Of a stretch of 64,000 nucleotides of DNA, positions 4,926 to 35,118 are shown in pieces. A model generated the notes under the pieces. That model saw only the letters and a program-made list of their open reading frames with translations, ran no database searches and was not told where the DNA came from. This stretch comes from a virus: the IMG/VR virus record IMGVR_UViG_3300033153_008183, positions 16,918-80,917 of that record; one strand, 5' to 3'. The first letter of the stretch is position 1. Every line of letters starts with the position of its first letter. Position numbers and translations under genes: made by a program.

Positions 4926-5290
4926 TAGGAAACCTCCAAAGCAGTATCTCCGGATACTTCACCCAGTACCGTATCAACTGTAAATTTAATTGCATATGTT
5001 CTGGTAGCTCCTATATACTCTCCTGTATAGGAAATAATAGAATTTACACCTTCTGTTTCTAATAAAGTATTCTTAAAAAAAGAATCTACTAATGATCTGT
5101 CACTTGTTTTTACAAACACTTGAGAAACATAAGGAATTCCTAATGTCTTATCTAAAAAATAGTCACCTTTAATCATAAGAAGATTACTTTCACATAATTG
5201 AGCAAGAGCTCCTATATCTGAAGTCATAGTTAGATTTCTTTTAGTTATTACTATATCATTTGTAATTGGATCAATATATAAATTTGTCAT
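4925..5290 (-). CDS. Baseplate wedge protein, gp25/Mu gp46-like
   Basis: A 121-residue protein starting MTNLYIDPITNDIVITKRNL. It contains the small-wedge signature of a flat TNDI..TKRN beta strand, a central KGDYFLDKTLGIPY and a GEVSGDTALEVS end. This pattern matches wedge initiators encoded just before gpJ in Mu-like and Bcep-like phages. The ATG overlaps the preceding stop (ATGA). Confidence 0.8.
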   Translation of the reverse strand: MTNLYIDPITNDIVITKRNLTMTSDIGALAQLCESNLLMIKGDYFLDKTLGIPYVSQVFVKTSDRSLVDSFFKNTLLETEGVNSIISYTGEYIGATRTYAIKFTVDTVLGEVSGDTALEVS

Positions 5291-5664
5291 TCTGCCCTCA
5301 CTTTAATTTGGCCCGCATCGTTCACTTCTAAACTGCAGGCACATGGCATGGGGGTATAAGGTGAAGCAGTCAAAGTGAAACTTCCAGCACAAACTCCAAT
5401 ATCACCTTTACGCATTACAGCTTTACTATCTGACTTAACTTTTAAAGCAGTAGCTATGACTCCATCACTCGCTCCAGAGACAAAAGTATGTGAAGCTAAT
5501 GTACAACCTGAAGGTGACCACCCTATACTATTCACTGCCACATTAGACCCATTCATCTTAAATTTACCGGGAGTATCTGAGGTACTTCCATCAGGAGTAG
5601 CAGCTCCTGGTATTGTATTGGTAACTTGCAGATTATAATCCACATTAGCTATTTCTGCTCCCAT
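5287..5664 (-). CDS. Putative spike-tip protein (PAAR-like)
   Basis: The 125-residue protein lies between the gpV/Gp138-like spike and the gp25-like wedge. It has glycine-rich turns and a VMRKGDIGVCAGSFTL core followed by YTPMPCACSLEV, so it has three cysteines in the second half plus a histidine in the first. A PAAR-like cone would sit on the spike tip and bind a metal through Cys/His. This assignment rests on position and the GD-G-CAG pattern, so it is tentative. Confidence 0.45.
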   Translation of the reverse strand: MGAEIANVDYNLQVTNTIPGAATPDGSTSDTPGKFKMNGSNVAVNSIGWSPSGCTLASHTFVSGASDGVIATALKVKSDSKAVMRKGDIGVCAGSFTLTASPYTPMPCACSLEVNDAGQIKVRAE

Positions 5665-19297: not shown

Positions 19298-19534
19298 CTA
19301 TTGCATCGTTCCAGCAAAATTTATTTCTGAATATGCAAGTCCACTAAAATCTAATTCTCTAATACTTTTACTTGTAAATAATAACTCTCTAACAGCCAAA
19401 CCTTCAAAATTTAAATCAGTTACTCTCTTACCTGTAAAGTATAAAGGTTCCACCAATGAAAGAAAAATAGGTCCTTCCACTAAACCACGTGTAACTAAAT
19501 ATGCTGTTTTTAAACCGTGTAAAACTAAATTCAA
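19298..19534 (-). CDS. Small repeat-like protein, TTG start
   Basis: The 78-residue frame starts at TTG 19534, coupled as TTGA to the stop of the 697-residue gene, with GAGGGTAGG before it. It carries loosely repeated LNFEGLAV, LLFTSKS, LDFSGLAY and INFAGTM strands of about 12 residues, suggesting a tiny beta-solenoid. Function unknown. Confidence 0.5.
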   Translation of the reverse strand: MNLVLHGLKTAYLVTRGLVEGPIFLSLVEPLYFTGKRVTDLNFEGLAVRELLFTSKSIRELDFSGLAYSEINFAGTMQ

Positions 19535-21624
19535 GTACCTACCCTCTGATCAGGTTCAACGTCACTTGGTACCCCTGCCTTAAATAGATCAAAAGTTTGT
19601 AACGGTGTAGTATGATCTGAACTATCTACCTTAATCAATTGATTAGAAATAACCTGTTCATCAGCCTTTAGTATTTTATTATTATTTTCTACAATTAACT
19701 CCATAGCTGCCTGGTCTGCTAAAGTTGCAAGTAAAGCTAAAGCAGCATCCATTTCAGCTTTTGTAGTGATATTAGCTGTAATTCTTGCTAATAACGTAGT
19801 GATATCTACCTGAGTGGCATCAATCTTCCCATCAGTTGTACCATGAAGTGTTGCTGCTGTCCCTGCTATGTCCGGAATCACGATATTCGCATCATCTGTT
19901 CCCCTCATAACCGTTGGAATTGCATCTACTTTGGTTTCTACACCATCCAATGTTGTTTCTTTTGCTACAGTAGAATCCAAAGCCATTCCTGAAACGTCAG
20001 CCTTAGATGCATTCCTTGAAGCAGTATCCGTAATTACCTCATCTGTCGTATGATCAAATAGGGACGCTTCCAGAGCCAAGGCAGATACATTTGCCTGACT
20101 TGCTGTACGGGAAGCACTATCCGTTGTAACCGTTCCTGTAATAGTTCTGGCTACATTACTCCAAATATCCGCAATAAGAGTACCGAAGCTGGAAAGTGTT
20201 CTGGTTGTTGCTGCCCACACATCGGCTGCAGAATGACTCGAACGGGTTGAAACCGCTACATCTAAATTACTTACATCTGCAATAGGAGCTTGTTCTAAAC
20301 CATTCTGAGTAAATCTTCTAACTCCGGCATCATCCTCTGTAGTCTCCCAAAGATGATCTAATTTACCACCATTAGTTTCCATTTCAGTTCTTATTTCCTC
20401 TACAGTTGGAGAACTCCCTCCTGCTCCAGTCAGCCAAGCATCATCACCACGATCCCTAATAGCTTCATTACTGTCTGTAGATTCTAAAAATCCAGAACCT
20501 TTTAATTCATCAATTGAAGCCTCTAAAGCAAGTGCTGAAACATTAGCTTGACTTGCAGTTCTTGAAGCCGTATCGGTTTCAACAGCCGCAGTCAATATTC
20601 TGGTTGCATATTCCCATACCTGCTGTGCAGTTAATCCGGATCCGGCTACTCCTACATCATTAACGGTTTTGGTTGTAACTGGTTCTACATCGTAAAAGAA
20701 TGAAAAGCTCTCTGCTACATCACCGGCATTGGTCTCTGTGATCAAAGTTCCCAGTAGTTTACCTACATCTACAGAATCACTATCTGGATCAAAATACCCT
20801 GCCGCTAATAATGTTCTTGCAATTACGGTAGCTTCCAAAGCTAAACCACTGACATCAGCTTTGGACGCATTCCTTGAAGCTGTATCTGTGATAACTTCAT
20901 CTGTCGTGTGGTCAAAGAGACTGGCTTCGAGTGCAAGTGCTGAAACATCTGCTTTACTGGCTGTTCTTGAGGCGGTGTCCGTTTCTACTGTACCTGTAAG
21001 GACTCTTGTAGCATATGACCAGATATCAGCTAATAGTGTTCCAAATGACGATAATGTTCTTGTTGTCGCTGTCCATACATCAGCGGCAGAATGAGTACTG
21101 AAACCCGTGGCCTGTGACGCTGTTCTTGATGCAGAATCGGTTGTAACTTCATCACTTGTATGATCGAATAAACTTGCTTCAAGAGCTAATGCTGATACAT
21201 TTGCTTGTGAAGCTGTTCTGGATGCACTATCGGTTTCTACTGCTGCTGTAACACTTGCAACAGCTCCAGATACGCTTGCCACAATCTGATCTGCTGTATC
21301 TAAATCAAAAGCGTGTTGTGCCGAAGCATCTCCATATGTTTCAAACTCTATTGTTATGTCCAACCATGCCTTTGTTGCTGTCTGGTCTATAATTATAATA
21401 ACGCCTCTGGCACATTCCATCTCTGTTGCTGTTAAAGCAATTGAATATGAATTCCCTTCATCAACAAAACCACTACCGGTATTTGCAGGAGTGCCTTCAT
21501 CTTTCATAACAGTAGAATCACCGGATTCATGTGAGGCATCTACTCTAAGATCTACTCCATCCACTTCGTAAAGAGAGAAAACAAAAGTAGTTGCTTCTCC
21601 ATATTTTCTTAGTCTATCAAACAT
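19531..21624 (-). CDS. Repeat-containing appendage/fibre protein (697 residues)
   Basis: The N-terminal ~120 residues form a beta domain (ATTFVFSLYEVDGVDLRVDA, ARGVIIIIDQTATKAWLDIT) that probably anchors to the virion. The rest is built of imperfect repeats of about 40 residues: TDTASRTASQANVSALALEA, SLFDHTTDEVITDTASRNAS and ADVWTATTRTLSSFGTLLAD. These alternate helical and turn segments, as in a long trimeric shaft. The DNA repeats are also visible. It overlaps the 1610-residue gene by 8 bases. No enzyme motif is seen. Confidence 0.65.
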   Translation of the reverse strand: MFDRLRKYGEATTFVFSLYEVDGVDLRVDASHESGDSTVMKDEGTPANTGSGFVDEGNSYSIALTATEMECARGVIIIIDQTATKAWLDITIEFETYGDASAQHAFDLDTADQIVASVSGAVASVTAAVETDSASRTASQANVSALALEASLFDHTSDEVTTDSASRTASQATGFSTHSAADVWTATTRTLSSFGTLLADIWSYATRVLTGTVETDTASRTASKADVSALALEASLFDHTTDEVITDTASRNASKADVSGLALEATVIARTLLAAGYFDPDSDSVDVGKLLGTLITETNAGDVAESFSFFYDVEPVTTKTVNDVGVAGSGLTAQQVWEYATRILTAAVETDTASRTASQANVSALALEASIDELKGSGFLESTDSNEAIRDRGDDAWLTGAGGSSPTVEEIRTEMETNGGKLDHLWETTEDDAGVRRFTQNGLEQAPIADVSNLDVAVSTRSSHSAADVWAATTRTLSSFGTLIADIWSNVARTITGTVTTDSASRTASQANVSALALEASLFDHTTDEVITDTASRNASKADVSGMALDSTVAKETTLDGVETKVDAIPTVMRGTDDANIVIPDIAGTAATLHGTTDGKIDATQVDITTLLARITANITTKAEMDAALALLATLADQAAMELIVENNNKILKADEQVISNQLIKVDSSDHTTPLQTFDLFKAGVPSDVEPDQRVGT

Positions 21625-24600
21625 GAGTTCCCTCCAAACAATGTTCTACTTCTGCCAACGCTTTTATATGTTCAGGATCACTATACCATAATAGCTGTTT
21701 TTGTGCCTGCTTTAATTTCATCACTGTATACGATAATAAGAAACCGGAAATTGTATTGAATAATATCAATAGATTTTCAAAATTAAATACTGCCGAATAT
21801 CCCATGATCCTACGTCTAAGGACTGCTATTGAAGCAGGGGGTTCTCCACCACCACTCCATGCCCATGTACCCCAAAATGTTGCGTTGTCGTTTGTTTGGG
21901 AGTATTCTTCTGAAATCCAATCGTCTGACTTAACATCAGAACACCATTTAAAATCATCTAATATACCATCAAAAGTTTGCACAGCACCATTGGCCGATCC
22001 TGCAACTTGAAATTCTGCATTACCTACTGTAGGAGTAGTTCTTGTTCCTCCTGAATCTTTATTACTGTTTATCCATAAATCAAAATCTGTTCCATTTTTG
22101 CGTAAACATATAAAAGTATTTGTCATAGCTGATACATAATTAGAATAAAAAGACATTGTTCCGTTATTATCTTGGACTCCCATACGTCCATTTCCTTGTA
22201 GAACAAAATTGACATAATTAGAGCCGTTATACTTGGCTATAAGTGTTTGATTACCTAATAGATCATCTGTATTTATCCAACCCATAAAAGTAAAATCATC
22301 ATCAATATCTGGATCAGTCACAACCGAATCTGTTATCAAGTAATCATCTATATCATCGAAGTGTAATCCATTGGCCACTTGAGATGATACTAAATCTCCA
22401 AAAGTCATTGTTCCGGCTGAATCTAAATCTACACTATTTAATGTCCTATCTAACATTTGTGGGGCTGATCCACTAGGATCTTCCTCAAGAGGCCAATATC
22501 CTTCCCAACTAGAATCATAAGCATTATCCGATCCATAAACATGAGTACTTGCATAAGCCTCATTATCAGTAACCGGAGGAAATACCCAAACTATTTGTGT
22601 ACCTGTATCCTGTAAATCAGGCCATAGAAGTCTAAGCCAACCTGTTTCTGCTCCATCATCAAAGTCAATCCAATCTGCCGCAAGTTCTATTCCATCAGAA
22701 GTTGATACCCTGCCCATTGTACCGTCAAAAGTATTAACTGCATCCCACCACGCTTGAGGTAGATTACCTAAATTGATCATACCTGAGAAGTCAACTAAAA
22801 CACTTGCAGGATTAGTCCATGTTGCATATGCTTTTTCACCGTAAGTATCTATGAGGTTTTCATCTACACCAACAGAATACGCTCCTACATTATATGGTTG
22901 ACCGTCCATATCTGTAGTGTAAAGTCCTGAAGATGGGTTATCTGCTCCACCTTCAAAGCAGTTGCCTGTATTTAAAAGTGTGAAGTCTCCGTTTGAAGGA
23001 TCTGTGTATTCGTTATCCCAATCTGAGCCGGATGGGGTAACTGCATTAGTTCCTGTCCCAGCAGCTGAGGCACAACAATCTACATCGTAGCCAGAACCTT
23101 CTACTACACTATATCCATAATCTATAAAAGCTGTGTTTACAACAGGTAATGATGAAGCGGTTCCATGTATGCCATACCTAAATTTATGTGCTATAGAGTT
23201 GTATACTGTAAAATAGTTACCAGACATAGCTGCTGAGCCTATAACTGATGTTGAACCACCGGTTATTACTGTATTTATTACAGTAACCGTATTATCTGAT
23301 AGAATCCCTATTTCTCTATAACTTTCATTACCTGCTTGCTCAAGATAACAACTATCAAACTCCATTCCTGGATGATCAGTTATTGTTATAACTGATTGAG
23401 CAGCGCCATTTGTAGAAGATTTTTGAAATTGTATACCTTTAAACCTAATATAGTCATCAAATATTCTGATTAGATATGCTGTATCCCCTGCTACCAGTCT
23501 ATATCTGCTTGTATCTATGCCTGTTTTAAGAGCCTCATCCCCTGAAGCTGCTTCAATTAAAACATAGTGCGTAATATCAGTAGTCCATCCATCTATAGTA
23601 AATGTTGTCGTATCAGCTGTCCCACTAGATGCCCTGCAATAAACATGATGCCAGTCTCCATCGGTAACAAGATTAGTTTGCTCGGCTGCTTCCCAATCGT
23701 AAAGTGACAACCAAGCTGTTTCCCACGTTAAACCGTCTGGAGTTCCACCTGAATCAGGATCGACATAGCGAAGTAGTTCAAATATTGCTTCATCAACACC
23801 GATTGAATATGCACCACTGAAATAAGGATCTCCTTCCATATCAGTAGTGTAAAGCCCACCACTAGGATCATCTACACCACCATGATATAGATTACCTTTT
23901 ATTGCTCCTGAATTAACTAAAGTGAAATCACCATTATCAGGATCAACGAATTCATTGTCCCAGTTTGAATCTCTTGGAGCTACTGGATTTGTTCCTATTG
24001 CATCATCACTGGCATTATAGTCTGCTGAGTTACCTGTCCCAATATCACTATAATCATCTCCTACATTATTAAATACAGCACAATTAGTGACGGTTACATT
24101 ATTAGAACCAGCTTCAAGTTCTATAGCTTCACTTGTTGCATAACCTTGACCTGTAAAAATACAGTTTGAAACATCTACAGAAGTAGATTCAGTAACAAGC
24201 AAACCATGCCTATGACACTTATTTAATATGGTATTAAATACTGAAACCGTTACATCGGAATCATATATATAAATTCCACGCAAGTAGCCAGCTCCATCTC
24301 CTTCAACTCTACACTCTTCAATTCTTATATCAGAACCTCCAGAAGGAATCCCCGATATATAAATAACATTTAAAAAATTAGTTGCAACATAATTTTCTTT
24401 TATCTGTAATTTTTTAATCCTTACATAGTTATCATTTATTATAATAGTAGTTTCATCCGTAGTTTCTAATCGGTACCTATCAGCTTGCCATCCAACCTTT
24501 AAAGCCTCATCTCCTACAGCTGCTTCTACAACAATGTTATTCGATGGTCCTGTCGTCCACCCATTTATAACAACCGCTGTCGTATCCGCTGTTCCACTCG

Positions 24601-26449
24601 GCGCAGAACACAGGACAGTGTGCCTATCCCCCGAAGCCGTTAAATCTGTTTCCTCTGCCCCTTCCCATGTATTAAGTAAAGGATAAGCTCGATTGACTCC
24701 GGTACTTTCATTAGTTGTTCCAGTTCCACCAGTAGTAGAATCTGTGTTTACATAGCGGATTACATTGTATGCTCCAATAGGTTCAGTGCTTGCTTTTATG
24801 TCATCGAAGTAGAGGTAGTCACCGTTTGCAGGAACTGCTTCCCAATATGTGCCTATTGTTATATCATCTGCTGAGTAAACTGTTAGGTTATTATCCATTT
24901 CAGAAAAAGCAGAATTTCCATCAACCCATAATTCTACCCCTCCATCGGCTCCTGTTCCTGCTTTCCAATGTGCTTCTATACAATGCCATGCTCCTAGACT
25001 AAAATTAGTAGTTGAAGTAGTGCTAGTTATATCTTGTCCTCTTATTTGCCATTGAGTAGGAACACCACTACCTGAAGCACCTCTTCTAATTCGTATATCA
25101 GCTAAAAGGGTTGAACCATCTCTAATTGTTAATAATTGTGTGGTTTGATATTCAGGAAGTGTAAAACCTGAATCTATATAAACATAACCACGAACATAAA
25201 CTTCATCTTGAGATACATCAAAAGCCTTTACTGCATAACAGTCGTTATTAGTTCCATCAAAAGTAACAGAGTATCCATTAGTTCCTCTATGGGTTGCATC
25301 ACTATCTAAGGTGAATACATTGCTTCCTTCATTGGTTATTGAATCAAACTCCCAAGGAGTAGTACCTGCATCTTCACCATTTATAAGGAATAGTTCATCG
25401 TCTAACTCTTCACCTTCTTCAAATGTCCATTCTCCCCAAAAGGTGGCGTTGTCGTTTGTTTGGGAGTATTCTGAAGATATCCAGTCATCTGATAAATGTG
25501 CATTAAATATTTGCACTCCCTGTTCTAATCCTGCAAATAATTTTGTTCCTGCTTCTGATGCTCCTATAAACCAATCCGCTGTTAATATATCATCTAAAGC
25601 CCCATCCCCTGTAAGCTCTCCTGATTTATCCAAATTTATTGATACATTTGTGGCTAATCCATCCCCATATCTAAATGTTACCATTTGCCATGACGAAGCG
25701 TTTATAGTACTTTTACTTAATGAATGGAACCCCCCTTCATCATTATAAGCTACAAATAGATTTGATCCGTTTTGTTCGAACAATACGTGATTTTCATCAT
25801 CCCAACACGATACATATGAGTGTTCTCCTACTACACTATCAGGATTAACCCACATAATTAGTGATAATTCTGTATATCCAGAAGTCCATGCATCCCCTAA
25901 ACTGATATATTGAGTACTACCATTCAGGTCTGTTGCATTTCCTACCTTTCCCACAGTACCCCCAATCGTAGGGCTTCCTGTTGCTGTTCCATCTCGTCCA
26001 TTCGATGTTCTATCTGTACCACCACCAAGAGGATAATAAGCATCCCATGAACTGTCATAAGCATTATCCGATCCATAAGTATCACTTGCACCATACAAAG
26101 CCATATCTGTATTAGGTAGCCAAACCCTTACTAATTGATCACCTGTACTTTCAAGATCACCACTCCATTTAACACGTAACCAACCTGTTTTATTTGTGGT
26201 ATTAAGATCAATGAAGTCAGTTGCTAATTCTGTTCCATCTAATTTTGAAGCCCTTCCATAGCCTCCAGTTGTAGTATCACATAAAGCCCATGCACGAGGT
26301 GATAATCTTGAGAGATCAACCATCAATGTAAAATCAGTTAATGCAGAATCGGGATTAGTTGCAGTTGCTTTACTGCCGGGGATTGTTGGAAGAGTTGCAA
26401 ATAAAGAGATGCTTAATAATAGTAGTAGTCCAACAAATAGTTTTTTCAT
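21617..26449 (-). CDS. Giant signal-peptide protein with DUF2341, LamG-like and beta-helix domains
   Basis: The 1610-residue protein starts with a clear signal peptide (MKKLFVGLLLLLSISLFATL). Then come a DUF2341-like domain and a LamG/concanavalin-like domain (about 35-340), a second jelly-roll (about 350-560), two tandem parallel beta-helix regions (about 565-860 and 865-1130), and a second DUF2341+LamG pair (about 1140-1520). A hydrophobic helix (FNTISGFLLSYTVMKLK) lies near the end. Both LamG units end in nearly identical DNA encoding EEYSQTNDNATFWG or similar. It looks like a surface adhesin or depolymerase-type protein. A signal peptide is unusual for a virion part, so it may instead act on the infected host's surface. 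Confidence 0.75.
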   Translation of the reverse strand: MKKLFVGLLLLLSISLFATLPTIPGSKATATNPDSALTDFTLMVDLSRLSPRAWALCDTTTGGYGRASKLDGTELATDFIDLNTTNKTGWLRVKWSGDLESTGDQLVRVWLPNTDMALYGASDTYGSDNAYDSSWDAYYPLGGGTDRTSNGRDGTATGSPTIGGTVGKVGNATDLNGSTQYISLGDAWTSGYTELSLIMWVNPDSVVGEHSYVSCWDDENHVLFEQNGSNLFVAYNDEGGFHSLSKSTINASSWQMVTFRYGDGLATNVSINLDKSGELTGDGALDDILTADWFIGASEAGTKLFAGLEQGVQIFNAHLSDDWISSEYSQTNDNATFWGEWTFEEGEELDDELFLINGEDAGTTPWEFDSITNEGSNVFTLDSDATHRGTNGYSVTFDGTNNDCYAVKAFDVSQDEVYVRGYVYIDSGFTLPEYQTTQLLTIRDGSTLLADIRIRRGASGSGVPTQWQIRGQDITSTTSTTNFSLGAWHCIEAHWKAGTGADGGVELWVDGNSAFSEMDNNLTVYSADDITIGTYWEAVPANGDYLYFDDIKASTEPIGAYNVIRYVNTDSTTGGTGTTNESTGVNRAYPLLNTWEGAEETDLTASGDRHTVLCSAPSGTADTTAVVINGWTTGPSNNIVVEAAVGDEALKVGWQADRYRLETTDETTIIINDNYVRIKKLQIKENYVATNFLNVIYISGIPSGGSDIRIEECRVEGDGAGYLRGIYIYDSDVTVSVFNTILNKCHRHGLLVTESTSVDVSNCIFTGQGYATSEAIELEAGSNNVTVTNCAVFNNVGDDYSDIGTGNSADYNASDDAIGTNPVAPRDSNWDNEFVDPDNGDFTLVNSGAIKGNLYHGGVDDPSGGLYTTDMEGDPYFSGAYSIGVDEAIFELLRYVDPDSGGTPDGLTWETAWLSLYDWEAAEQTNLVTDGDWHHVYCRASSGTADTTTFTIDGWTTDITHYVLIEAASGDEALKTGIDTSRYRLVAGDTAYLIRIFDDYIRFKGIQFQKSSTNGAAQSVITITDHPGMEFDSCYLEQAGNESYREIGILSDNTVTVINTVITGGSTSVIGSAAMSGNYFTVYNSIAHKFRYGIHGTASSLPVVNTAFIDYGYSVVEGSGYDVDCCASAAGTGTNAVTPSGSDWDNEYTDPSNGDFTLLNTGNCFEGGADNPSSGLYTTDMDGQPYNVGAYSVGVDENLIDTYGEKAYATWTNPASVLVDFSGMINLGNLPQAWWDAVNTFDGTMGRVSTSDGIELAADWIDFDDGAETGWLRLLWPDLQDTGTQIVWVFPPVTDNEAYASTHVYGSDNAYDSSWEGYWPLEEDPSGSAPQMLDRTLNSVDLDSAGTMTFGDLVSSQVANGLHFDDIDDYLITDSVVTDPDIDDDFTFMGWINTDDLLGNQTLIAKYNGSNYVNFVLQGNGRMGVQDNNGTMSFYSNYVSAMTNTFICLRKNGTDFDLWINSNKDSGGTRTTPTVGNAEFQVAGSANGAVQTFDGILDDFKWCSDVKSDDWISEEYSQTNDNATFWGTWAWSGGGEPPASIAVLRRRIMGYSAVFNFENLLILFNTISGFLLSYTVMKLKQAQKQLLWYSDPEHIKALAEVEHCLEGTHV

Positions 26450-26454
26450 TTATA

Positions 26455-26559
26455 TTACATAACTCCTAATTTTAAAGTATTTACAACCACATATGTTACT
26501 GCAATTCCAACAACTATATAGGCAATAATTAAAATAAGAAAAAGTATATCATGTTTCAT
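26455..26559 (-). CDS. Tiny membrane protein, 34 residues
   Basis: The frame (MKHDILFLILIIAYIVVGIA...) has a ribosome site GGTAAGGAGTGAAT and one transmembrane helix. It lies between the giant gene and another tiny membrane gene. Function unknown. Confidence 0.55.
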   Translation of the reverse strand: MKHDILFLILIIAYIVVGIAVTYVVVNTLKLGVM

Positions 26560-26561
26560 AT

Positions 26562-26630
26562 TCACTCCTTACCTATTGCTACAAAGGACAATACTATTAA
26601 AAACAATATTGCCCAAATTATAAAAATCAT
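26562..26630 (-). CDS. Tiny membrane protein, 22 residues
   Basis: MIFIIWAILFLIVLSFVAIG is nearly all one hydrophobic helix, followed by KE. The ATG overlaps the TGA of the 51-residue gene, and AGAGGGACATATAA precedes it. The stop lies 2 bases before the next tiny ATG. Coding is plausible because of this chain of overlaps. Confidence 0.5.
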   Translation of the reverse strand: MIFIIWAILFLIVLSFVAIGKE

Positions 26631-26782
26631 TTATATGTCCCTCTATAAAATAATGTTACAATTGCTTTCCCGGTGAAATACAAATTCTCCATTATCCTTT
26701 GAATAACACTAGATCTACCATACCCTTCTGTGATAAGTAGTTTCCCAACTCCCATTCCTTTTAAAATAATAGGACTTATCAT
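26627..26782 (-). CDS. Small basic protein, 51 residues
   Basis: The frame (MISPIILKGMGVGKLLITEG) starts with an ATGA overlap at the end of the 444-residue gene and ends with a second ATGA overlap. It has a middle GRSSVIQRIMENLYFTGKAI helix and a basic end. No family recognised. The double overlap supports expression. Confidence 0.6.
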   Translation of the reverse strand: MISPIILKGMGVGKLLITEGYGRSSVIQRIMENLYFTGKAIVTLFYRGTYK

Positions 26783-28113
26783 ACACGTACTCTTTTATAA
26801 ACGTTTTCAATAGAAGGATTATCATCCGCATCAAATAAATTAAAACGCATAACCTCAATCCCTCCAGCTTTATAAAATATTTCCTGGAAAGTAGTTCCAT
26901 CTATTATACGATCCCCTCCAGCCTCATCCCATAACAAACCAATTGCTTCACCGAAACTACCAGATAATATGTTATTTGCCAGTAAGCTACTCCATACTGC
27001 TGTACCCATAGTCTCTGATCCTGGGAATACACCCAATTTGATAACACTACAACCTACTTCAGTATTATCTGTGATCGCTGTATCTAATATTCCTGCTAAT
27101 CCTATAGTTCCTAATGTATTAGTAGTATCTAGCAGTGCAAACCCGCCGCCCCCACTATATGCAAAAGTAGCAAGCTTATCTGCATGATTCATTCCTATGG
27201 TTCCATATGCACCAGTGGCTTCTCTTACATTTAATTTTGTAGCTGTACCAGCACTCATATCAAATATACGAGATTCAATCCCATTCATAAATATTCCAGC
27301 TATTCCAACAATATTAACAGTAGCATCTGCTAATAGAGCTACATCACCACCCATTTTTACATCATCATAGTCACCATTTAATCCTGATAAACCATCCAAA
27401 AATGTCACATTCTTACAAACTACTTTACCAACTTGTAGTCCTGTTAATTTTACATTATTAAAATGTGATTTATCACAATTCTCACCAGCAAAATCAATAG
27501 TTTTTAAACCAATACTTGAAAAAGTAAAGTTCTTTAAAGTTCGTTCAAGAGTAATATCAGATAATGCCATTATATCAAATATGTCGTTTGCTTCTGCAAA
27601 ATCTACTCCATCTGCTGTAACATTGAATGGACTACCAGCTGAACCATCTCCACCAGGACCTGCTTTTTCATCAATGAAGACATACTGCTTCATATATCTG
27701 AGTTTATCTAATGTTGCGGATTCTTTACTGGTTAATCCTGATACACCAGTCTCTACACGTTGCAAACCTGCAGAATTACTAGGAACAACGCTTACTCCAT
27801 TTACAACCATAATATCTACAATATTATTATTACTTCCTATAAGATTAACTCTTGTAGCAGAAGTGGAAAACGCTACTGTGTAACCATCAACCACTTTGTC
27901 AAAACCTGCATAGTCCGCACCAGCAAAATCTAATTCTGGATTCTTATGATTTAATATTTGAGGAGCCCATAATCCGTCAATAAAACTTGCTTCAAGTCTA
28001 CGGATTTCGATTAAAAAATTCTGCATGAACAAGTTATATGTAGTTCCCGACACCAGAGTCATATCTGATGTCGGAATAAATACTACTTTCGTAAACCAAT
28101 TAACGGTGTACAT
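26779..28113 (-). CDS. Virion appendage protein with beta-helix-like region (444 residues)
   Basis: The N-terminal ~170 residues (YTVNWFTKVVFIPTSDMTLV, TTYNLFMQNFLIEIRRLEAS, NPELDFAGADYAGFDKVVDG) recall structural proteins of large marine-type phages. Residues of about 190-330 carry short repeated strands (LKTIDFAGENCDKSHFNNVK, VVCKNVTFLDGLSGLNGD) suggesting a beta-solenoid. The C-terminal part ends in GGIEVMRFNLFDADDNP, a motif often seen at the end of such appendages. No enzyme is apparent. Confidence 0.6.
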   Translation of the reverse strand: MYTVNWFTKVVFIPTSDMTLVSGTTYNLFMQNFLIEIRRLEASFIDGLWAPQILNHKNPELDFAGADYAGFDKVVDGYTVAFSTSATRVNLIGSNNNIVDIMVVNGVSVVPSNSAGLQRVETGVSGLTSKESATLDKLRYMKQYVFIDEKAGPGGDGSAGSPFNVTADGVDFAEANDIFDIMALSDITLERTLKNFTFSSIGLKTIDFAGENCDKSHFNNVKLTGLQVGKVVCKNVTFLDGLSGLNGDYDDVKMGGDVALLADATVNIVGIAGIFMNGIESRIFDMSAGTATKLNVREATGAYGTIGMNHADKLATFAYSGGGGFALLDTTNTLGTIGLAGILDTAITDNTEVGCSVIKLGVFPGSETMGTAVWSSLLANNILSGSFGEAIGLLWDEAGGDRIIDGTTFQEIFYKAGGIEVMRFNLFDADDNPSIENVYKRVRV

Positions 28114-28122
28114 GCTGCCACC

Positions 28123-29883
28123 TTATGATTCATCATCTAATACTACTGTAAGTGATAGACCATTTGATCCTATTGTACCAGAAATAGGAACTGGCTTGTC
28201 TGGATTTGCTGGATCACCATGTCTAACCCACCCTATTACATCCATATCTGCAAGGTAAACATAACTGTTGCTTACTGTTTTGGTTGTACCGCCACCTGTT
28301 GCAGAGGCATAAAGTACAGTAACAAATACTGGATCACCTGCTGTATAAGTAGTTGTTAGTCCTCCTGGATGATCAGTCACATCAAGTGTAAATGTAGCTC
28401 CTGTCCAAGAGCTATAATGATACATTTCATAAGTCGTACCACCACCAGTTGTATCCTTAACCAAAAACCAACCATCTTGAGGTCTATCAGAACGTATTGC
28501 TGTTCCCACAACAAAGTCTGGATCACCTACACCATTACCAGCACCAACTGTATTTGTAGTATAATCTGGAGCGTTTAAAGCTCCATCTTTTTCTGTGAGG
28601 AAAACATGAGGATCATCACCAGCTAAGCCTGTTTCAACAGTAACAAGCATAGTTACATTCTGTGGTACAACTGGAGTTTCACCATCAAGAGAAGTTACTG
28701 AATCGCCAAAAGTAAGTTCATTGGCAATAATACCAATACCAAATGCTGCAATCCAATTTGACCCTGTGAATAAACCAAGGTGATTTGGATTAGTTGTTAT
28801 ACTATCTGGTGTTCCAGATACCGTTCCAGTCGCTGCACCATCACCAGTAATTTCAATAGTGTCGTCTGGAAATACACCAGTGTTCAAGTGTAGAATAAGT
28901 CGTGCAGTAGAACCTCCAGCTGTATCGTCAACACCAACTAAATTACCTGTGCCTTCTGTAACTCCTGTTCCCCAAGAAAGAGTTTCATTCTGAACCCATG
29001 TCCCAGCCCCGGAACCAATAACACAATCATAAAGTCTACCAGTCCAAAGATTACCATCAACTCCGTAAAGAGTTTCGGAAGTTCCATCTACAAGTAAAGA
29101 TTTCACAAACTCAGAAAGAGCTTTTTTACCTAAAGCATTATGACTCCACTCACCTAAGAAGACCTTATCTCCATTACCATCAACATCAATAAGCTTATAC
29201 CCTTCCGATGGAGTAATGGCGTAACCTTCAACGGTTGCCTGTAAAGTTGTATTCTGTGGATCGTTCGCTGTAATAATAGCCGCTGAAGCTTCACCTACAC
29301 CAAGAGTTACTTCCCAAACTGCATAAGTATCATACCAGGTACTTGCCTTTATGTTGATTACTTTATTATCAGTATCAACACCCCCCACACGACCTTTTAC
29401 GAGAATTCTCATAAGGGTTTTTGCAGGATTCGTAACATTCTTACCAGTTCCCCAGTGAGAAGTTAGCTCTATGTGATTCTGAATAACCTTCAAAGGTGTT
29501 GCAAGGTTTACTGCACCTTCGACATTTACACCGTAGTATCCATCATCACCATTGTTTTGCTCTACAGAACCACCAAACAAGTACGTAGCAACCTCATCAG
29601 TAATAGTATAATTTACAGTGTAATCTGTAGTGTGATCCAATAGAGTAATAATCGTACCAAGTGCTTCTGAAGTTGAAGGATTAGGTTTTGAAAAGTTTAT
29701 TTCATCGTCACCCGAAATAGCAAAATCCCATGCTATTTTCTGTAATGACCTATGTAACCACCAGACATGGAATGTATCTGTTCCCGATATGTATGTTATT
29801 GCTCCTGTTGCTGCTATTTTAAATTGTGCTAAAAAAGCTGTTACTGCTCCTGCTGCTGCTGCATCTCTGTCATAAACTGCCAT
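28123..29883 (-). CDS. Large virion appendage protein (586 residues)
   Basis: It opens MAVYDRDAAAAGAVTAFLAQ and is beta-rich throughout, with TLMRILVKGRVGGVDTDNKV and WYDTYAVWEVTLGVGEASAA. The last ~45 residues (DMDVIGWVRHGDPANP, then ISGTIGSNGLSLTVVL) match the end of the next protein upstream. That shared end may be a common assembly or attachment module. The start has a strong AGGGAGGATT ribosome site. Function is inferred from context. Confidence 0.6.
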   Translation of the reverse strand: MAVYDRDAAAAGAVTAFLAQFKIAATGAITYISGTDTFHVWWLHRSLQKIAWDFAISGDDEINFSKPNPSTSEALGTIITLLDHTTDYTVNYTITDEVATYLFGGSVEQNNGDDGYYGVNVEGAVNLATPLKVIQNHIELTSHWGTGKNVTNPAKTLMRILVKGRVGGVDTDNKVINIKASTWYDTYAVWEVTLGVGEASAAIITANDPQNTTLQATVEGYAITPSEGYKLIDVDGNGDKVFLGEWSHNALGKKALSEFVKSLLVDGTSETLYGVDGNLWTGRLYDCVIGSGAGTWVQNETLSWGTGVTEGTGNLVGVDDTAGGSTARLILHLNTGVFPDDTIEITGDGAATGTVSGTPDSITTNPNHLGLFTGSNWIAAFGIGIIANELTFGDSVTSLDGETPVVPQNVTMLVTVETGLAGDDPHVFLTEKDGALNAPDYTTNTVGAGNGVGDPDFVVGTAIRSDRPQDGWFLVKDTTGGGTTYEMYHYSSWTGATFTLDVTDHPGGLTTTYTAGDPVFVTVLYASATGGGTTKTVSNSYVYLADMDVIGWVRHGDPANPDKPVPISGTIGSNGLSLTVVLDDES

Positions 29884-29893
29884 ATAATCCTCC

Positions 29894-31456
29894 CTATATT
29901 GGCTCTAACTTAACTGTTAGATTAAATCCATTTGATGTAATTGTACCTGATATATCTTTAGGTGTATAATCTTCACCATTTATATCCCATTGTCTAACCC
30001 ATCCCACAACATCCAAATCCCCTAAAAAATTATAAGCTACACTTAATTCACCATTAGCATCTGTTTCATCATTAACAATTTGTGTTGAATGGTCACTCTT
30101 TTTTAACAGCATTATGTGTGAATACTGAATAGGTAAATCCGTAACAGCATCCAAAATCAAAAAATCTATAGAAACATCATTGCTTATAGTAATAATTCCT
30201 GCCCCTGCTTCATTTTTATGTCCTGCATCCGAACCATTAACCATTGAAGCAATAAGATCGTAAGAAGTATTTGAATATAGATCATAAGTAGATATTCCAT
30301 CTGCACCGGAAAATTTTATATTATCAAATATGAAAGTCTGATCTGCTACGGTTGGTACAATCTCTACACCAGACGTACCCGGAGCAATGATTTTTCCATT
30401 TTTAATTCCATGCCCAGGAATCATTCTAATACCGAAACCATCAGAACTAATTATATTAAAATTCTCAAACTTAATAGTGTCTGGAATAACTTCTGCACAA
30501 GAATCAAAAGTCGGATTTAATACCTCTTTATCTGTAGCTGCTGGTTGAAAAATAACTACCCCACAATCCTGAAAAATACATCCATAAATACCGAACTTAT
30601 CTATATTGGTATTAGACATATCAAACTGTACTTTAACTATACCTCCAGATTTAAAAGCACACCCCTTTATTCCATCTAAACCTGACTTCTCTCCAAAGTA
30701 TATTTCTGTTGTTCCCGTTCCTCCAACACCTTGTATCTTATGATAGCCATCTGCAACAAGATCATTTTCAAACTCTATCCATTTTGTTTTATCCGTGAAC
30801 CATAAATCACCTGTAGCACTGCTAAATAGAAAAGTTCCTTGTAAAAAATAAGTACTTCCAACCTTTCGTATCTGTCCAATTGATCCAGCAATGTCCTGTA
30901 CGAGAAGTTCTTCAAAATCATCTGGAGTACCAGAAGAACCACCGGTAATAACTATACCTCTTGAAGAAGCTGTATCATACCTGAGATCATCCCAAAAAGT
31001 ATTTGCAGCAAGTTTAGATTTCGCAATCCCTTTAAACCCAATACCTACTTTTACAATCGCTGTGATTGTTGGATCAGTACCATTATTTGCTGTGGGAGTA
31101 GAATCGGCATCAATGATAAATCTTTTCCATGCTCCTGAATTATTATCACTCCCTGCTACATACCAATAACCTTGATTACCAGAAGAATCTTCAAGACATA
31201 ATTGATAACCACCATTTGCCTGAATATCCATTGTCGGGCCAGTCAAACACATCAGGGCTGCCAGATAATGCCTACCTGTAAAATCAGCCTGAGTAATTGT
31301 CTTCCATATTAAATTAGTTTCTATATCAGTATCAACACCTATACACCCAGTACCTTCATACTTAAAATCTTCATCAAGGGTACCTACCAAACCGTCCATA
31401 GCATCGGTATCACAATCAAATATTTGTATAGAATTATTGACAACTGCTAAACTCAT
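29894..31456 (-). CDS. Large appendage protein with beta-helix middle (520 residues)
   Basis: Residues 1-170 form a jelly-roll-like domain (GYQLCLEDSSGNQGYWYVAG, NTFWDDLRYD), as in carbohydrate-binding modules. Residues of about 190-410 form a beta-helix with many short strands. A small Ig-like domain follows (DFLILDAVTDLPIQYSHIML), and the end is DLDVVGWVRQWDINGE, then ISGTITSNGFNLTVKL. That end matches the neighbouring 586-residue protein. The ATG is coupled (ATGA) to the SPOUT-like gene. Confidence 0.62.
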   Translation of the reverse strand: MSLAVVNNSIQIFDCDTDAMDGLVGTLDEDFKYEGTGCIGVDTDIETNLIWKTITQADFTGRHYLAALMCLTGPTMDIQANGGYQLCLEDSSGNQGYWYVAGSDNNSGAWKRFIIDADSTPTANNGTDPTITAIVKVGIGFKGIAKSKLAANTFWDDLRYDTASSRGIVITGGSSGTPDDFEELLVQDIAGSIGQIRKVGSTYFLQGTFLFSSATGDLWFTDKTKWIEFENDLVADGYHKIQGVGGTGTTEIYFGEKSGLDGIKGCAFKSGGIVKVQFDMSNTNIDKFGIYGCIFQDCGVVIFQPAATDKEVLNPTFDSCAEVIPDTIKFENFNIISSDGFGIRMIPGHGIKNGKIIAPGTSGVEIVPTVADQTFIFDNIKFSGADGISTYDLYSNTSYDLIASMVNGSDAGHKNEAGAGIITISNDVSIDFLILDAVTDLPIQYSHIMLLKKSDHSTQIVNDETDANGELSVAYNFLGDLDVVGWVRQWDINGEDYTPKDISGTITSNGFNLTVKLEPI

Positions 31457-31902
31457 GTATTATACCTCGCAGCAAGCATAATTCCTAAAACTACATGCGA
31501 CCATAAAGGAATCGAAACTGGAGTATCTATTGTAATTAAATCTGGATCAGTAAATAAACTCATATTTACCTGTGAATAATCAGAACCGATTACATATGTG
31601 ACATTATCTTCGTGATGAATATAATCCCTGATATTTGTAAACTCTTCCTCTGGATAATTATCTGCTTTTTCAAGCACTACAAATGTTTGTCCTGAATGTT
31701 CTGCAAGACACGCCTCAAGAGTAGGATATGTATTAAACTCTATTTCAGCATCAGCCCATCCTATGTCCTCGTTTGTAATTACATCCAAAATATTTAAACC
31801 AAAGGCTTTCATTGTAAGTGTGTAAAATTTCATTACAGTACGAATTCTATCCGGATCATTTATCCATGCTGCGTTATCCCAATGAACTATTACCCCAATC
31901 AT
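31453..31902 (-). CDS. Small SPOUT/SpoU-like fold protein
   Basis: The 149-residue protein shows a TrmH/SpoU-like order of motifs. NDPDRIRTVMKFYTLTMKAF fits dP-N-R-a--afG, VVLE and VTYVIGSDYSQ fit the lvlGsE-G segment, and VSIPLWSHVVLGIMLAARY fits the v-IP---sLNvs-A knot helix. The catalytic-site asparagine of SpoU is not obvious (W-S-H replaces S-L-N). It may therefore be a binding-only or altered knot. A GGAGGTG ribosome site precedes it. This is pattern recognition only. Confidence 0.4.
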   Translation of the reverse strand: MIGVIVHWDNAAWINDPDRIRTVMKFYTLTMKAFGLNILDVITNEDIGWADAEIEFNTYPTLEACLAEHSGQTFVVLEKADNYPEEEFTNIRDYIHHEDNVTYVIGSDYSQVNMSLFTDPDLITIDTPVSIPLWSHVVLGIMLAARYNT

Positions 31903-32327
31903 TTTTCACCTCCAAAATAATAGTCTATTACAATATAAGTTGTTTCAGCAACTATAACTGCAGTTAAACCCATTATAGCATACTTCATAATTTTAATCTG
32001 TAACTGTTGCTTGTCGTAAAAACTCTGCAAAGTCGTCAGAGATACTCCCATATCCTTTGATATATTCTTCTGTTTTCTCACTTCCTGCTGTGATACTGTC
32101 AATGATGTGTTCAAGTTCGAAATTGTCCTCTTCGAGTTCCTTACTGTATCCTTTGCTTTTACTAAGTTCACTCTCAACAGTTGCATTTGATCTAATAAGC
32201 TGGATTCGTTGCCCCTGTAACGTTGCAATAATAGCGTCAGACTTACTTTCTCCTGCGAAGATAAGCCAAACAAGACCGACGATAATGATAATAAGAACAC
32301 CAATAATACCAATTTCTTTGCCCACAT
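31899..32327 (-). CDS. Spanin-like protein A (signal peptide, coiled coil, C-terminal membrane helix)
   Basis: The 142-residue protein starts MWAKKLVLLVFLLSLSSVLF, a signal-peptide-like segment without a lipobox cysteine. A coiled coil follows (VKAKDTVRNSKRTISNLNTS), and a membrane helix at about 115-137 ends it. The ATG has a GAGGTGAATA ribosome site. It overlaps the next listed gene over almost its whole length in another frame. Together with holin and lysin genes upstream it should belong to the lysis cassette, most likely envelope fusion. Confidence 0.6.
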   Translation of the reverse strand: MWAKKLVLLVFLLSLSSVLFGLSSQEKVSLTLLLQRYRGNESSLLDQMQLLRVNLVKAKDTVRNSKRTISNLNTSLTVSQQEVRKQKNISKDMGVSLTTLQSFYDKQQLQIKIMKYAIMGLTAVIVAETTYIVIDYYFGGEK

Positions 32328-32334
32328 TATTCAC
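31993..32334 (-). CDS. Spanin-like protein B (N-terminal anchor, coiled coil)
   Basis: The 113-residue frame starts at GTG 32334, 2 bases after the holin stop (TGAG GTG). It has one N-terminal membrane helix (IGIIGVLIIIIVGLVWLIFA), a periplasmic coiled coil (SELSKSKGYSKELEEDNFEL) and a short end. This is the layout of an inner-membrane spanin such as Rz. It is nested in the other spanin-like gene, a pattern known from Rz/Rz1. The ribosome site (AAGAAG) is modest. Confidence 0.6.
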   Translation of the reverse strand: MNNVGKEIGIIGVLIIIIVGLVWLIFAGESKSDAIIATLQGQRIQLIRSNATVESELSKSKGYSKELEEDNFELEHIIDSITAGSEKTEEYIKGYGSISDDFAEFLRQATVTD

Positions 32335-32335
32335 C

Positions 32336-32569
32336 TCACTTCTTCAAATCCTTTATAAATGTCAAAGCTTCTCTACCAAATACCACAATCAATACAATAA
32401 AAATCCACACATACACTATCCCACTTTCAGGAATATGATCATTCGTGATCATACTGTAAGTGATATACAGTACAATTCCCTTAATTCCCAAAAGTTTAGA
32501 AATTGCATTGACTACCCTTGTCGGGAGATACTTTATAGCATCCCAAAATGTCATATCTTTATAATCCAT
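32336..32569 (-). CDS. Holin-like protein
   Basis: A 77-residue protein with two hydrophobic segments (GIKGIVLYITYSMI and IVYVWIFIVLIVVFG) and a basic end (TFIKDLKK). Its start overlaps the stop of the L,D-transpeptidase gene (TAATG) and its stop is next to the spanin-like starts. Size, topology and neighbours fit a class II holin. Confidence 0.7.
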   Translation of the reverse strand: MDYKDMTFWDAIKYLPTRVVNAISKLLGIKGIVLYITYSMITNDHIPESGIVYVWIFIVLIVVFGREALTFIKDLKK

Positions 32570-33063
32570 TATAATACCTCCAAATACACAGGATCACCAT
32601 GCCGTAACTCTGGTTCTATGATTCGAGCTATAGAAGCCATTTGCTCATCAGTATCCCCACCTCTAATACAACCTAACGTGTGTTTATATTTATGAGTATG
32701 ATGAATATGATATTGTGTGTCTGTTTGAATTTCTCCTGTAGGATGCCAATAATTCCCTTCTCTATCTAAATCCCATATGAATACTTTTCTTTTCATTGTC
32801 GTTTTTATTTTTACATAACCGAACTCTTCTATTTCTTCCGGATCTTTTAACCATTCAATAGCTGTTATTTCAAAAATTCCCGAAGGTGCTTGCCTGGGAT
32901 AATATGGTTTACGATGTCCTTTTTCCGGATATGTATAAACAATCTCATTTTTTTTACGTTTTCCATTTAATTCTTGACGTACTTTACAAGTTGCAGGGTA
33001 TCGTTCTATTTCAACAGTACCATTCATGATTATGATTTCTGACCATGTAAATATGACTCTCAT
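32569..33063 (-). CDS. L,D-transpeptidase-type lysin
   Basis: The start is the ATG at 33063 (TGATG overlap, GGGGG before it); 164 residues. The catalytic motif HIHHTHKYKHTLGCIRGG at about 119-136 fits the YkuD/DUF5675-type pattern of a histidine followed by S/T-x-G-C-x-R. Upstream APSGIFEITAIEWL fits the domain's core strands. It should cut or exchange peptide bonds in peptidoglycan. Its place between XhlA-like, holin and spanin genes points to an endolysin role. No signal peptide is seen, so a holin must release it. Confidence 0.75.
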   Translation of the reverse strand: MRVIFTWSEIIIMNGTVEIERYPATCKVRQELNGKRKKNEIVYTYPEKGHRKPYYPRQAPSGIFEITAIEWLKDPEEIEEFGYVKIKTTMKRKVFIWDLDREGNYWHPTGEIQTDTQYHIHHTHKYKHTLGCIRGGDTDEQMASIARIIEPELRHGDPVYLEVL

Positions 33064-33446
33064 CACATACCCCCTACCTTACCCCAGATAAGAACCATTT
33101 GAACTATCCCATAAATCATAGCAGGTGTCAAAAAACCAATAGCTATAAATAAAACATTTATTTTTGTATTTATAGTTTCTTGTTTACTATCATTTTTATA
33201 CAATTCGGCAATAGAACCTTTATTCCTTTGTACCTCACCATTGATGAGCTCAATTTGAGCCTCTAATTTTTCATCACGTAATAACTGCTCACGTTTCATG
33301 TGTTCAATCTCCAATTTTAAAAGCTCAGTATTACCTTTCATTTGCCCGGTAGTTTCCTGTGACATAAGTTTTAAATCAGAAATTTCTTTTTCTATTTCAT
33401 TAAGTTTATCAAGTATTAGTTTTTCAGTAGTGCTGTCTATTGCCAT
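33063..33446 (-). CDS. XhlA-like coiled-coil membrane protein
   Basis: A 127-residue protein with a long coiled coil (LDKLNEIEKEISDLKLMSQE, LEIEHMKREQLLRDEKLEAQ) and one C-terminal membrane helix (INVLFIAIGFLTPAMIYGIV). This is the shape of haemolysin XhlA-type proteins that assist lysis. A GGGG ribosome site precedes the ATG, and it is the first gene of the lysis cassette. Confidence 0.65.
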   Translation of the reverse strand: MAIDSTTEKLILDKLNEIEKEISDLKLMSQETTGQMKGNTELLKLEIEHMKREQLLRDEKLEAQIELINGEVQRNKGSIAELYKNDSKQETINTKINVLFIAIGFLTPAMIYGIVQMVLIWGKVGGM

Positions 33447-33505: not shown

Positions 33506-34462
33506 TTATCTACTTAATAACTCTTTATCAGCTGCTTGTACTAAAGACAGGAATATTGGAGAACCTGTGCATCTACAATTATTTGCACGTCCAACGTGTT
33601 CTGGCTCCTCTCTACCCTGAATTTTCCTCCAACTTTTACCACCATTTGTAGAAATTTTGCCATCTGACCATCTTCGCCAAACTCCATTCATCTTATAATG
33701 AGAATACTTAGATTTTGGATAAAGCCCCCTGGGATTACCACGAACTTTCTTATCCCCTTTGGTATACCACTCATAAGCTTCAATACCAGCTTCCTCAGCC
33801 ATAGTTTGTTGTAATCTGGAACTTAAATCTCCTGTAGAATCTCTGGCAATATAATCAGCCTGAGTCGAAGTCAATCTGTCATTTTGAATCTCTATTTTAT
33901 CACTGATAACATCCCAACTATCATCATTAGAAACACCATCTGTGATAATTTTATTTATTTTCTTAGCATGAAGAGTAGAATAATCTCTCAATCGATCAAG
34001 ATTATCAGCAGCCCATTCTGCAACCACTTCCCTTTCAGCTTCTGTTTCAAAAATAGTAACATCTACACCAGTAGCCTGTCTGACAAACTTACTCCATTGG
34101 CTTTTACTTTGTTTTGAAATGGAATCAGCTATATTATTCAAAAAAGTAGAATCAGGAAAAGCAGCTAATCCAATCCGGGTAATTGCTCCTTTGATTTCAA
34201 TTATACCATCCTGGTGTAAGACTGCCTCTGAATCTTGTCTCAGACGCTGTAAATACCACTTCTTAGCCTCTTCCAACATAGGAATGGTCACATATAAGGC
34301 TAAAGCAGATCGGAGAAGCCTGCGGTATCGTATTTCCTGAATGTATGGATACTGCCAATTTAATTTTCTGCCTAATTGAGAAGAACGTTCCCTGGCCTTA
34401 ACACTTAATCTCCCTCTCCGGGAAAAAATATAAGGGTAGAGGTACGATTCTCTAACTTTCAT
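33506..34462 (-). CDS. Head morphogenesis protein (Mu gpF-like)
   Basis: The start at ATG 34462 (MKVRESYLYPYIFSR) shares ATGA with the HNH gene; 318 residues. The C-terminal part holds the Mu gpF-type domain: STQADYIARDSTGDLSSRLQ and then EPEHVGRANNCRCTGSPIF, with the typical C-x-C. It is a minor head protein encoded after the portal, as usual, apart from the inserted endonuclease. Confidence 0.85.
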   Translation of the reverse strand: MKVRESYLYPYIFSRRGRLSVKARERSSQLGRKLNWQYPYIQEIRYRRLLRSALALYVTIPMLEEAKKWYLQRLRQDSEAVLHQDGIIEIKGAITRIGLAAFPDSTFLNNIADSISKQSKSQWSKFVRQATGVDVTIFETEAEREVVAEWAADNLDRLRDYSTLHAKKINKIITDGVSNDDSWDVISDKIEIQNDRLTSTQADYIARDSTGDLSSRLQQTMAEEAGIEAYEWYTKGDKKVRGNPRGLYPKSKYSHYKMNGVWRRWSDGKISTNGGKSWRKIQGREEPEHVGRANNCRCTGSPIFLSLVQAADKELLSR

Positions 34463-35118
34463 GCTTCTTTCCAAGATTTATTATAAACTACATCCTCTAA
34501 TGTTGATAATTTTAAATTATAAATTTTACATAGATCTTTAATTGAATATTTTTTCATAGCGAACAATCTCCTAAGAGATCTCACAGTAAACCAATTTAAT
34601 ACATTATTCCTTCTATTCTGTTGATTCACAGCATTTGTTACCCATCTACAATTATCCGGAGTATAATCTTCATTATTTTTTTCACGATCAATTTGTGCTT
34701 TCTTAAATGGTTTTGGTCCCATGTCTTCATAGAAGTTCTTAAATGAATGTAACCAACGCTCACAAACTTTAATTCCTCTGCCCCCATAATTATGATATTC
34801 TTTGTTATTAGGATTATAGCAACGAGCTTTCATACCAGCCCACACTTTATGTTCTAAAGTATCTGACATACCATGTCTTTCTGCTTTTATAACCATAGGA
34901 TCACCATGTCTTAAAAATCTCAAATAATGAGATTTGCAGAATCCTTTTATCTTAGTTTTGTTTAAACACCCTACTACAGAACACATTACATCAGGTGCTT
35001 TAGCAATATGTTTCACTATTAAAGGATCCCCATTGTTTCTGAACCTATTATAATGTTTACTACAATACCCCAATCCATAATGTTTGATTGTACAACCGTC
35101 TACTTTACACACTCTCAT
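34459..35118 (-). CDS. HNH-type homing endonuclease with duplicated zinc fingers
   Basis: A 219-residue protein. Two N-terminal fingers repeat: C-VDGC--HYGLGYCSKHYNRF--NGDP and CSVVGC...GFCKSHYLRFLRHGDP. Then come KARCYNPNNKEYHNYGGRGI and a late IDREKNNEDYTPDNCRWVTN block, typical of phage HNH nucleases. A short HTH-like tail (MKKYSIKDLCKIYNLKLSTL) closes it. It is a free-standing mobile gene inserted between portal and gpF, overlapping the portal by 14 bases. Confidence 0.85.
   Translation of the reverse strand: MRVCKVDGCTIKHYGLGYCSKHYNRFRNNGDPLIVKHIAKAPDVMCSVVGCLNKTKIKGFCKSHYLRFLRHGDPMVIKAERHGMSDTLEHKVWAGMKARCYNPNNKEYHNYGGRGIKVCERWLHSFKNFYEDMGPKPFKKAQIDREKNNEDYTPDNCRWVTNAVNQQNRRNNVLNWFTVRSLRRLFAMKKYSIKDLCKIYNLKLSTLEDVVYNKSWKEA

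Follow-up and report, generated by a model that had tools for sequence, protein, structure and literature searches.

The 64,000-nucleotide stretch of DNA analyzed here (the window) covers bases 16918-80917 of a linear 80,917-base virus record, and its minus strand carries a late-gene array that runs from approximately 38.9 kb down to 0.3 kb. The array comprises small and large terminase genes, a portal gene, a Mu-F-like head gene, a block of lysis-type and accessory genes, and genes for the head maturation protease, the major capsid protein, the sheath of a contractile tail, the tape measure, the baseplate wedge, and tail fibers. An HNH-type homing endonuclease-like gene (34459-35118) separates the portal and Mu-F-like head genes, and is not present at that site in three related loci (L003, L004, and L036). 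The lysis-type module occupies 31899-33446 on the minus strand and includes a transmembrane protein (33063-33446), a YkuD-like gene (32569-33066, a sub-threshold match), and a nested spanin-like pair (31993-32334 and 31899-32327); in both the window (31899-32334) and L036 (4014-4593), the second product of this pair has a signal peptide and a C-terminal membrane helix, but no lipobox. The same block contains three accessory structural-type genes lacking signal peptides (444, 586, and 520 aa; 26779-31456, minus strand), and the gene of principal interest, which encodes a 1610-aa protein that we refer to as P0001 (21617-26449, minus strand).

Two very small hydrophobic open reading frames (ORFs) precede the P0001 gene on the same strand. 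The first, of 22 aa (26562-26630), starts at an ATG served by AGAGGG and is coupled to a second ORF of 34 aa (26455-26559, or to 26565 with two more residues), which encodes a single hydrophobic helix, starts at an ATG served by AAGGAG, and ends 5 nt before the P0001 start. Both have good ribosome sites, and the two may form part of a membrane cassette with P0001. The P0001 stop in turn shares 8 nt with the start of a gene for a 697-aa stalk-type protein without a signal peptide (19531-21624, minus strand), a relative of which adjoins a LamG protein in another phage locus (L007).

The P0001 reading frame is intact over its full length, while the opposite strand across 21617-26449 is riddled with stops, bearing out the 1610-residue protein proposed by the first-pass annotation of this DNA. 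Its start codon is coupled to the preceding small ORF, and the nearest Shine-Dalgarno sequence, an AGGAG located 13 nt upstream of the ATG, has long and poor spacing. Codons 2-41 include no ATG, GTG, or TTG, and the next candidate start is codon 42/43, so a form lacking the N-terminal hydrophobic segment could begin only within the first domain. The possibility of a later internal start bypassing that segment, which the first-pass annotation had raised against its own reading, is thereby ruled out, and dual starts yielding signal-less forms of P0001 are likewise impossible.

The modules of P0001 follow the order signal peptide, D1, LG2, B1, B2, D2, and a C-terminal appendix. D1 (residues 19-350; 25400-26395) consists of a DUF2341-like prefix and a Laminin_G_3 (ConA-like lectin) domain, and is repeated as D2 (residues 1205-1534; 21848-22837), with 34% identity between the two (E 1e-57). 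Pfam detects Laminin_G_3 in two stretches (76.5 bits against a cut-off of 27.6), and with the jelly-roll fold predicted for D2, this places P0001 in the Laminin_G_3/ConA-like lectin superfamily. Similarly, B1 (residues 563-887; 23789-24763) and B2 (residues 893-1197; 22859-23773; also matched by an HMM) are 40% identical (E 8e-68), and a right-handed beta-helix of the pectate-lyase type is established by a Pfam Beta_helix match (29.6 bits against a cut-off of 25.9, with DUF5123 also matched) together with the AlphaFold model of B1, itself a right-handed beta-helix (pLDDT 80.5, pTM 0.86). The Foldseek matches of that model are led by the pectate lyase Pel9A (E 3e-4), followed by other polysaccharide lyases and pectin methylesterases, with phage tailspikes ranking lower; the fold similarity to lyases is weak (TM ~0.4). 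All of these modules are encoded on the minus strand. The order DUF2341-LamG, beta-helix, beta-helix, DUF2341-LamG, described earlier as nearly symmetric, is thus recovered by self-comparison, but with two amendments. An additional jelly roll, LG2 (Laminin_G_2/Polysacc_lyase-like by Pfam, with a weak D-profile match; residues ~351-562; 24764-25399), had been missed and breaks the symmetry, and DUF2341 (PF10102) has no Pfam match in P0001 at E≤0.1 and is matched in only 1 of 12 relatives (E 0.005), so that the prefix of approximately 100 aa can at most be called "DUF2341-like." The D family as a profile also matches an S-layer-protein chain and the pentraxin PTX3. The best Foldseek matches of D2 are clostridial neurotoxin binding domains, which we attribute merely to a shared ConA-like jelly roll (~16% identity) and do not take as evidence of a toxin.

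The first 18 residues of P0001 (26396-26449, minus strand; N-terminus MKKLFVGLLLLLSISLFATLPTIPGS) have the form of a Sec signal peptide, MKKLFVGLLLLLSISLFA/T, with cleavage predicted after Ala18 (SLFA/TLP; the slash marks the predicted cut here and below). Our home-made heuristic resolves an n-region MKK, an h-region LFVGLLLLLSISLF, and a small residue, A18, at position -1, and the 10-residue hydrophobic peak of P0001 ranks third among the 84 non-overlapping ORFs of at least 60 aa in the window. The absence of a lipobox cysteine near the cleavage site sets P0001 apart from lipoproteins of the Llp/Cor/Ltp type. On the combined basis of its form, its rank, and the junction described next, the signal peptide reported by the first-pass annotation is real as far as sequence can tell.

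The position of this signal becomes clear by comparison with the relatives of the D modules. These are proteins of uncultured phages, nearly always free-standing and of approximately 350 aa, that begin MALPxxxYxxATxTNPxSALTDF; none of the 13 with an intact N-terminus has a signal peptide by the same heuristic. In P0001, the signal replaces exactly the initiator Met of this canonical MALP start (SLFA/TLPTIPGSKATATNPDSALTDF, vs. MALPSTGYATATVTNPGSALTDF in the relative L038). A corresponding junction is found at the other end. Residues 1537-1552 (PPASIAVLRRRIMGYS; 21794-21841, minus strand) match the natural C-terminus of free-standing D proteins, such as the RRMMGVS-stop of L041. Three of these proteins (L038, L041, which ends HHRRMMGVS, and L046) stop 24-25 residues past a conserved TFWGTW, and others stop 12-17 residues past it, with a few continuing into further domains; P0001 reaches the equivalent RRRIMGYS 23 residues past TFWGTW and then extends for 58 more residues that include a hydrophobic helix. 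The signal and the appendix therefore both begin or end where a D module naturally does, indicating that both targeting elements were added at natural phage-module boundaries. The free-standing proteins (e.g., L038 7814-8869 and L041 5593-6645, both from IMG/VR) thus share with P0001 the D module and its start and end positions, and those of L038 and L043 sit within structural gene clusters; unlike P0001, they consist of a single module and have neither a signal peptide nor a membrane appendix.

We note that a similar C-terminal peptide, approximately [S/T/G]IP[V/I][L/M/V/F]HH or an RRR-type sequence followed by R..G, occurs on phage proteins of unrelated folds, both LamG and beta-helix (L041 5593-6645, L050 8992-10005, L074 7131-8936, L007 3817-4584, and L046 3804-4883), with the internal copy in the window at 21794-21841. 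A regular expression written post hoc for this peptide matches 5 of 818 ORFs, all of them of display type, and the peptide may be a docking tag.

The appendix itself (residues 1553-1610; 21620-21793, minus strand) comprises a borderline membrane helix at approximately residues 1557-1578 and a K-rich tail. The C-terminal membrane helix of the first-pass annotation is therefore only partly upheld: there is a hydrophobic segment, followed by KLKQAQK, and AlphaFold places a helix at 1557-1589, but the span is borderline (Kyte-Doolittle peak 1.47 at 1559-1577; pLDDT ~60). In the model of D2 plus tail (pLDDT 72), the last 58 residues form two helices of low confidence behind the ConA-like jelly roll. 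ORF comparison revealed no relatives of the appendix in any fetched locus, and hence no similar ORF that could have been fused as a neighboring gene. Separate production of the appendix from an ATG at codon 1549 was also rejected, because the sole upstream AGGA lies 2 nt from that ATG, which is too close.

Signal peptides also occur on phage relatives of the beta-helix modules. By our heuristic, 4 of 32 viral B-module ORFs have one, some of the relatives being fragments: L059 (7559-8671), L065 (7933-10104), L066 (8944-9981), and L074 (7131-8936). In two of these, the predicted mature end coincides with the Met-less start of a signal-free relative, namely GFA/AEVVRYVN in L059 (GFAAEVVRYVN; vs. 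MAEVVRYVD in L050) and VMA/ATITRYVN in L066 (VMAATITRYVNPGSSGGD; vs. MATITRYVN, MATITRYVNPGSDGGD, in L057), so that exact replacement of Met appears to recur in independent phages. An internal ATG that might yield a signal-less form of the L066 protein is present, but has no Shine-Dalgarno sequence, and was discounted. On the B-module tree, the signal state requires five changes, at least four of which are forced by well-supported branches; L059, for example, is sister to the signal-free L057 (support 98/90). In both L059 and L066, three signal-bearing genes follow one another, with the L059 run located between terminase and portal. In L074, a neighboring pair of such genes is found downstream of a probable capsid gene, and the single one in L065 adjoins endolysin- and tail-fiber-like genes. 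Against a background rate of 47 signals in 1420 ORFs (3.3%) for our heuristic, three-gene runs are unlikely to arise by chance. These proteins resemble P0001 in bearing a signal on a B-type module within structural or lysis gene regions, but lack D modules and the C-terminal membrane helix, which among the signal-bearing proteins is present only in P0001.

Groups of signal-bearing genes inside phage structural regions span 7068-10687 in L059, 6755-9981 in L066, and 4792-5559 plus 7131-9556 in L074, and a small "GAEFLxxAxxHW" family is common to L059 and L066 and, in L074, seems to have been fused to the beta-helix. Tandem beta-helix giants with 7 to 12 copies of the B unit are encoded on a 169-kb virus contig (L090 1185-8864) and on a Patescibacteria metagenome-assembled genome (MAG) contig (L117 3-14948).

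We found no homolog of the whole of P0001 in viral_contigs, genome_contigs, or INPHARED, nor any domain-level relatives in INPHARED, but alignments of the individual modules recover many relatives in uncultured phages. The closest relatives of all D and B modules are phage proteins (45% identity for D1, to the free-standing L038 protein, 38% for D2, and 44-46% for B1 and B2), and in a scan with the B alignment, identity over a long stretch peaks at 36% in MAG contigs (genome_contigs), vs. 46% in viral contigs. The codon-usage distance of P0001 (0.119) falls inside the range of the late genes (0.086-0.199), and its GC3 (0.206) is also inside their spread. With phage proteins closest to its modules and phage-typical codon usage, recent capture of a host adhesin, one of the two roles suggested by the first-pass annotation, is unsupported. 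As to how the near-symmetry arose, support for D1/D2 and B1/B2 as sister pairs is weak (72/48 and 57/90, respectively), and D1 and D2 stand apart in a tree that included a cellular row. Each module is also about as similar to phage relatives as to its partner, or more similar, so that the tree establishes neither a simple internal duplication nor a joining of separate phage modules.

Close relatives of the window phage, with terminase and capsid 86-97% identical, show that the block around P0001 is highly variable. L036, which is contiguous from the portal to beyond the capsid gene, lacks the P0001 gene, the gene for its 697-aa neighbor, and all three accessory genes of 26779-31456; in L034, the protease region directly follows the spanin-like gene; and in L003, despite a terminase identity of 96%, the homolog of the 29894-31456 product is a mere 38% identical. 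This absence and divergence indicate that the P0001 gene is an accessory gene in a hypervariable block, as would be expected for a host- or environment-facing protein and not for one involved in core assembly. The gene does lie between head genes, as its earlier assignment to a head-gene operon implied, but that block is variable and also holds lysis-type genes.

The reading that we favor, with moderate confidence, is that P0001 is a Sec-exported and probably membrane-anchored surface protein built of phage display modules. With a signal exactly in front of those modules and a putative anchor exactly behind them, P0001 is probably destined for the envelope of the infected cell and not for the phage particle; the cell coat thus appears to be the better half of the earlier suggestion of a cell coat or a host adhesin, judging from the placement of signal and anchor at exact module ends and the recurrence of signals on B relatives. 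P0001 would join in one chain the paired lectin-like units, the additional jelly roll, and the paired beta-helices of the pectate-lyase type; modules of these kinds are signal-less and presumably virion-borne in other phages, a status that we assume from gene position. Late in infection, the Sec machinery of the host would carry P0001 across the membrane, the signal would be cleaved off after Ala18, and the C-terminal helix and positive tail would hold it in the inner membrane with approximately 1,530 residues outside the cytoplasm. The outer face of that membrane would be the periplasm in a diderm host or the cell surface in a monoderm host, and there the lectin and beta-helix domains could bind the infected cell's envelope or extracellular polysaccharide. 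As to purpose, our guess is that P0001 would most likely shield the dying cell from sister or competing phages, by superinfection exclusion or by masking of receptors, or else aid release through surface polysaccharide. The nested spanin-like pair suggests a diderm host, in which P0001 would face the periplasm and binding of bulky surface polysaccharide would make less sense, and this counts against our favored explanation, as do the borderline membrane helix, its absence from the other signal-bearing relatives, and the poor Shine-Dalgarno spacing. As to the host, terminase relatives in Lactococcus, Enterococcus, and Leptospira phages are just 31-33% identical, capsid and sheath matches are scattered, and the metagenome 3300035698 features in a publication about an Antarctic lake.

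Three other explanations deserve consideration. P0001 could be a virion decoration or spike protein whose modules retain a virion role, either joining particles at or after lysis following export or keeping its hydrophobic N-terminus as an anchor. Its neighbors and most relatives of its modules are indeed structural-type phage genes, and the internal motif PPASIAVLRRRIMG matches the C-termini of display-type phage proteins. Nevertheless, the D relatives manage without any signal, and assembly of tailed-phage heads and tails is cytoplasmic, which means that P0001 would be taken away from the assembly site by its cleavable Sec signal and C-terminal membrane helix; we know of no precedent among tailed phages, and consider such a role unlikely. 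Somewhat less likely still is a secreted polysaccharide-degrading or lysis-aiding factor, in which the beta-helices would release progeny by lyase action on sugars of the envelope or capsule. The predicted resemblance of B1 to Pel9A and other polysaccharide lyases, the similarity of LG2 to Polysacc_lyase, and the location of the gene downstream of lysis-type genes would all fit such a factor, but the fold similarity is low, as noted above, and the Asp-rich DYCASDDGDGTN segment of the family is degraded in B2 (CCASAAGTGTN). It is very improbable that the P0001 gene is cargo captured from a host and coding for an adhesin or cell-surface protein: although the combination of signal, lectin, beta-helix, and membrane anchor resembles cellular surface proteins, and signals are frequent on cellular B relatives, the B modules are 45-46% identical to phage sequences against 36% at best to cellular ones, the codon usage is that of the phage, and both ends match the ends of free-standing phage proteins.

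Proteins that a phage encodes and exports to the host envelope, as we propose for P0001, are known from superinfection exclusion: Llp of phage T5 is an exported lipoprotein that acts on the receptor FhuA from the periplasm (PMC9586334), and Ltp of TP-J34 is an exported phage envelope lipoprotein (PMC3952083). Both differ from P0001 in being lipoproteins, and Llp is small, whereas P0001 is a 1610-aa protein with no lipobox, made up of lectin and beta-helix modules and encoded among late-type genes. A repeat protein exported to the cell surface, CwpV of Clostridioides difficile, likewise blocks phage infection, but it is host-encoded, cell-wall-bound, and unrelated to P0001 (PMC4737114). An adhesive role is shared by Hoc of T4 and pb10 of T5, tailed-phage accessory proteins of the glycan-binding type, which have Ig-like folds and, unlike P0001, are assembled on virions (PMC7602432); the main text of that review of decoration proteins contains neither "signal peptide" nor "periplasm."

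More broadly, and as a tentative proposal, tailed phages may repeatedly have redirected sugar-binding modules of the virion type to Sec export by the host through exact N-terminal signal fusion, giving a late second set of adhesins on the cell envelope, in the present case with an added anchor. If this is true, phage display modules would not be bound to the virion, and the addition of a signal peptide would decide whether a given module serves the particle or the infected cell. P0001 and its counterparts would then constitute a large, non-lipoprotein class of phage-encoded envelope proteins, and LamG and beta-helix genes beside phage head genes would not necessarily encode virion proteins, a caution for the annotation of such genes.
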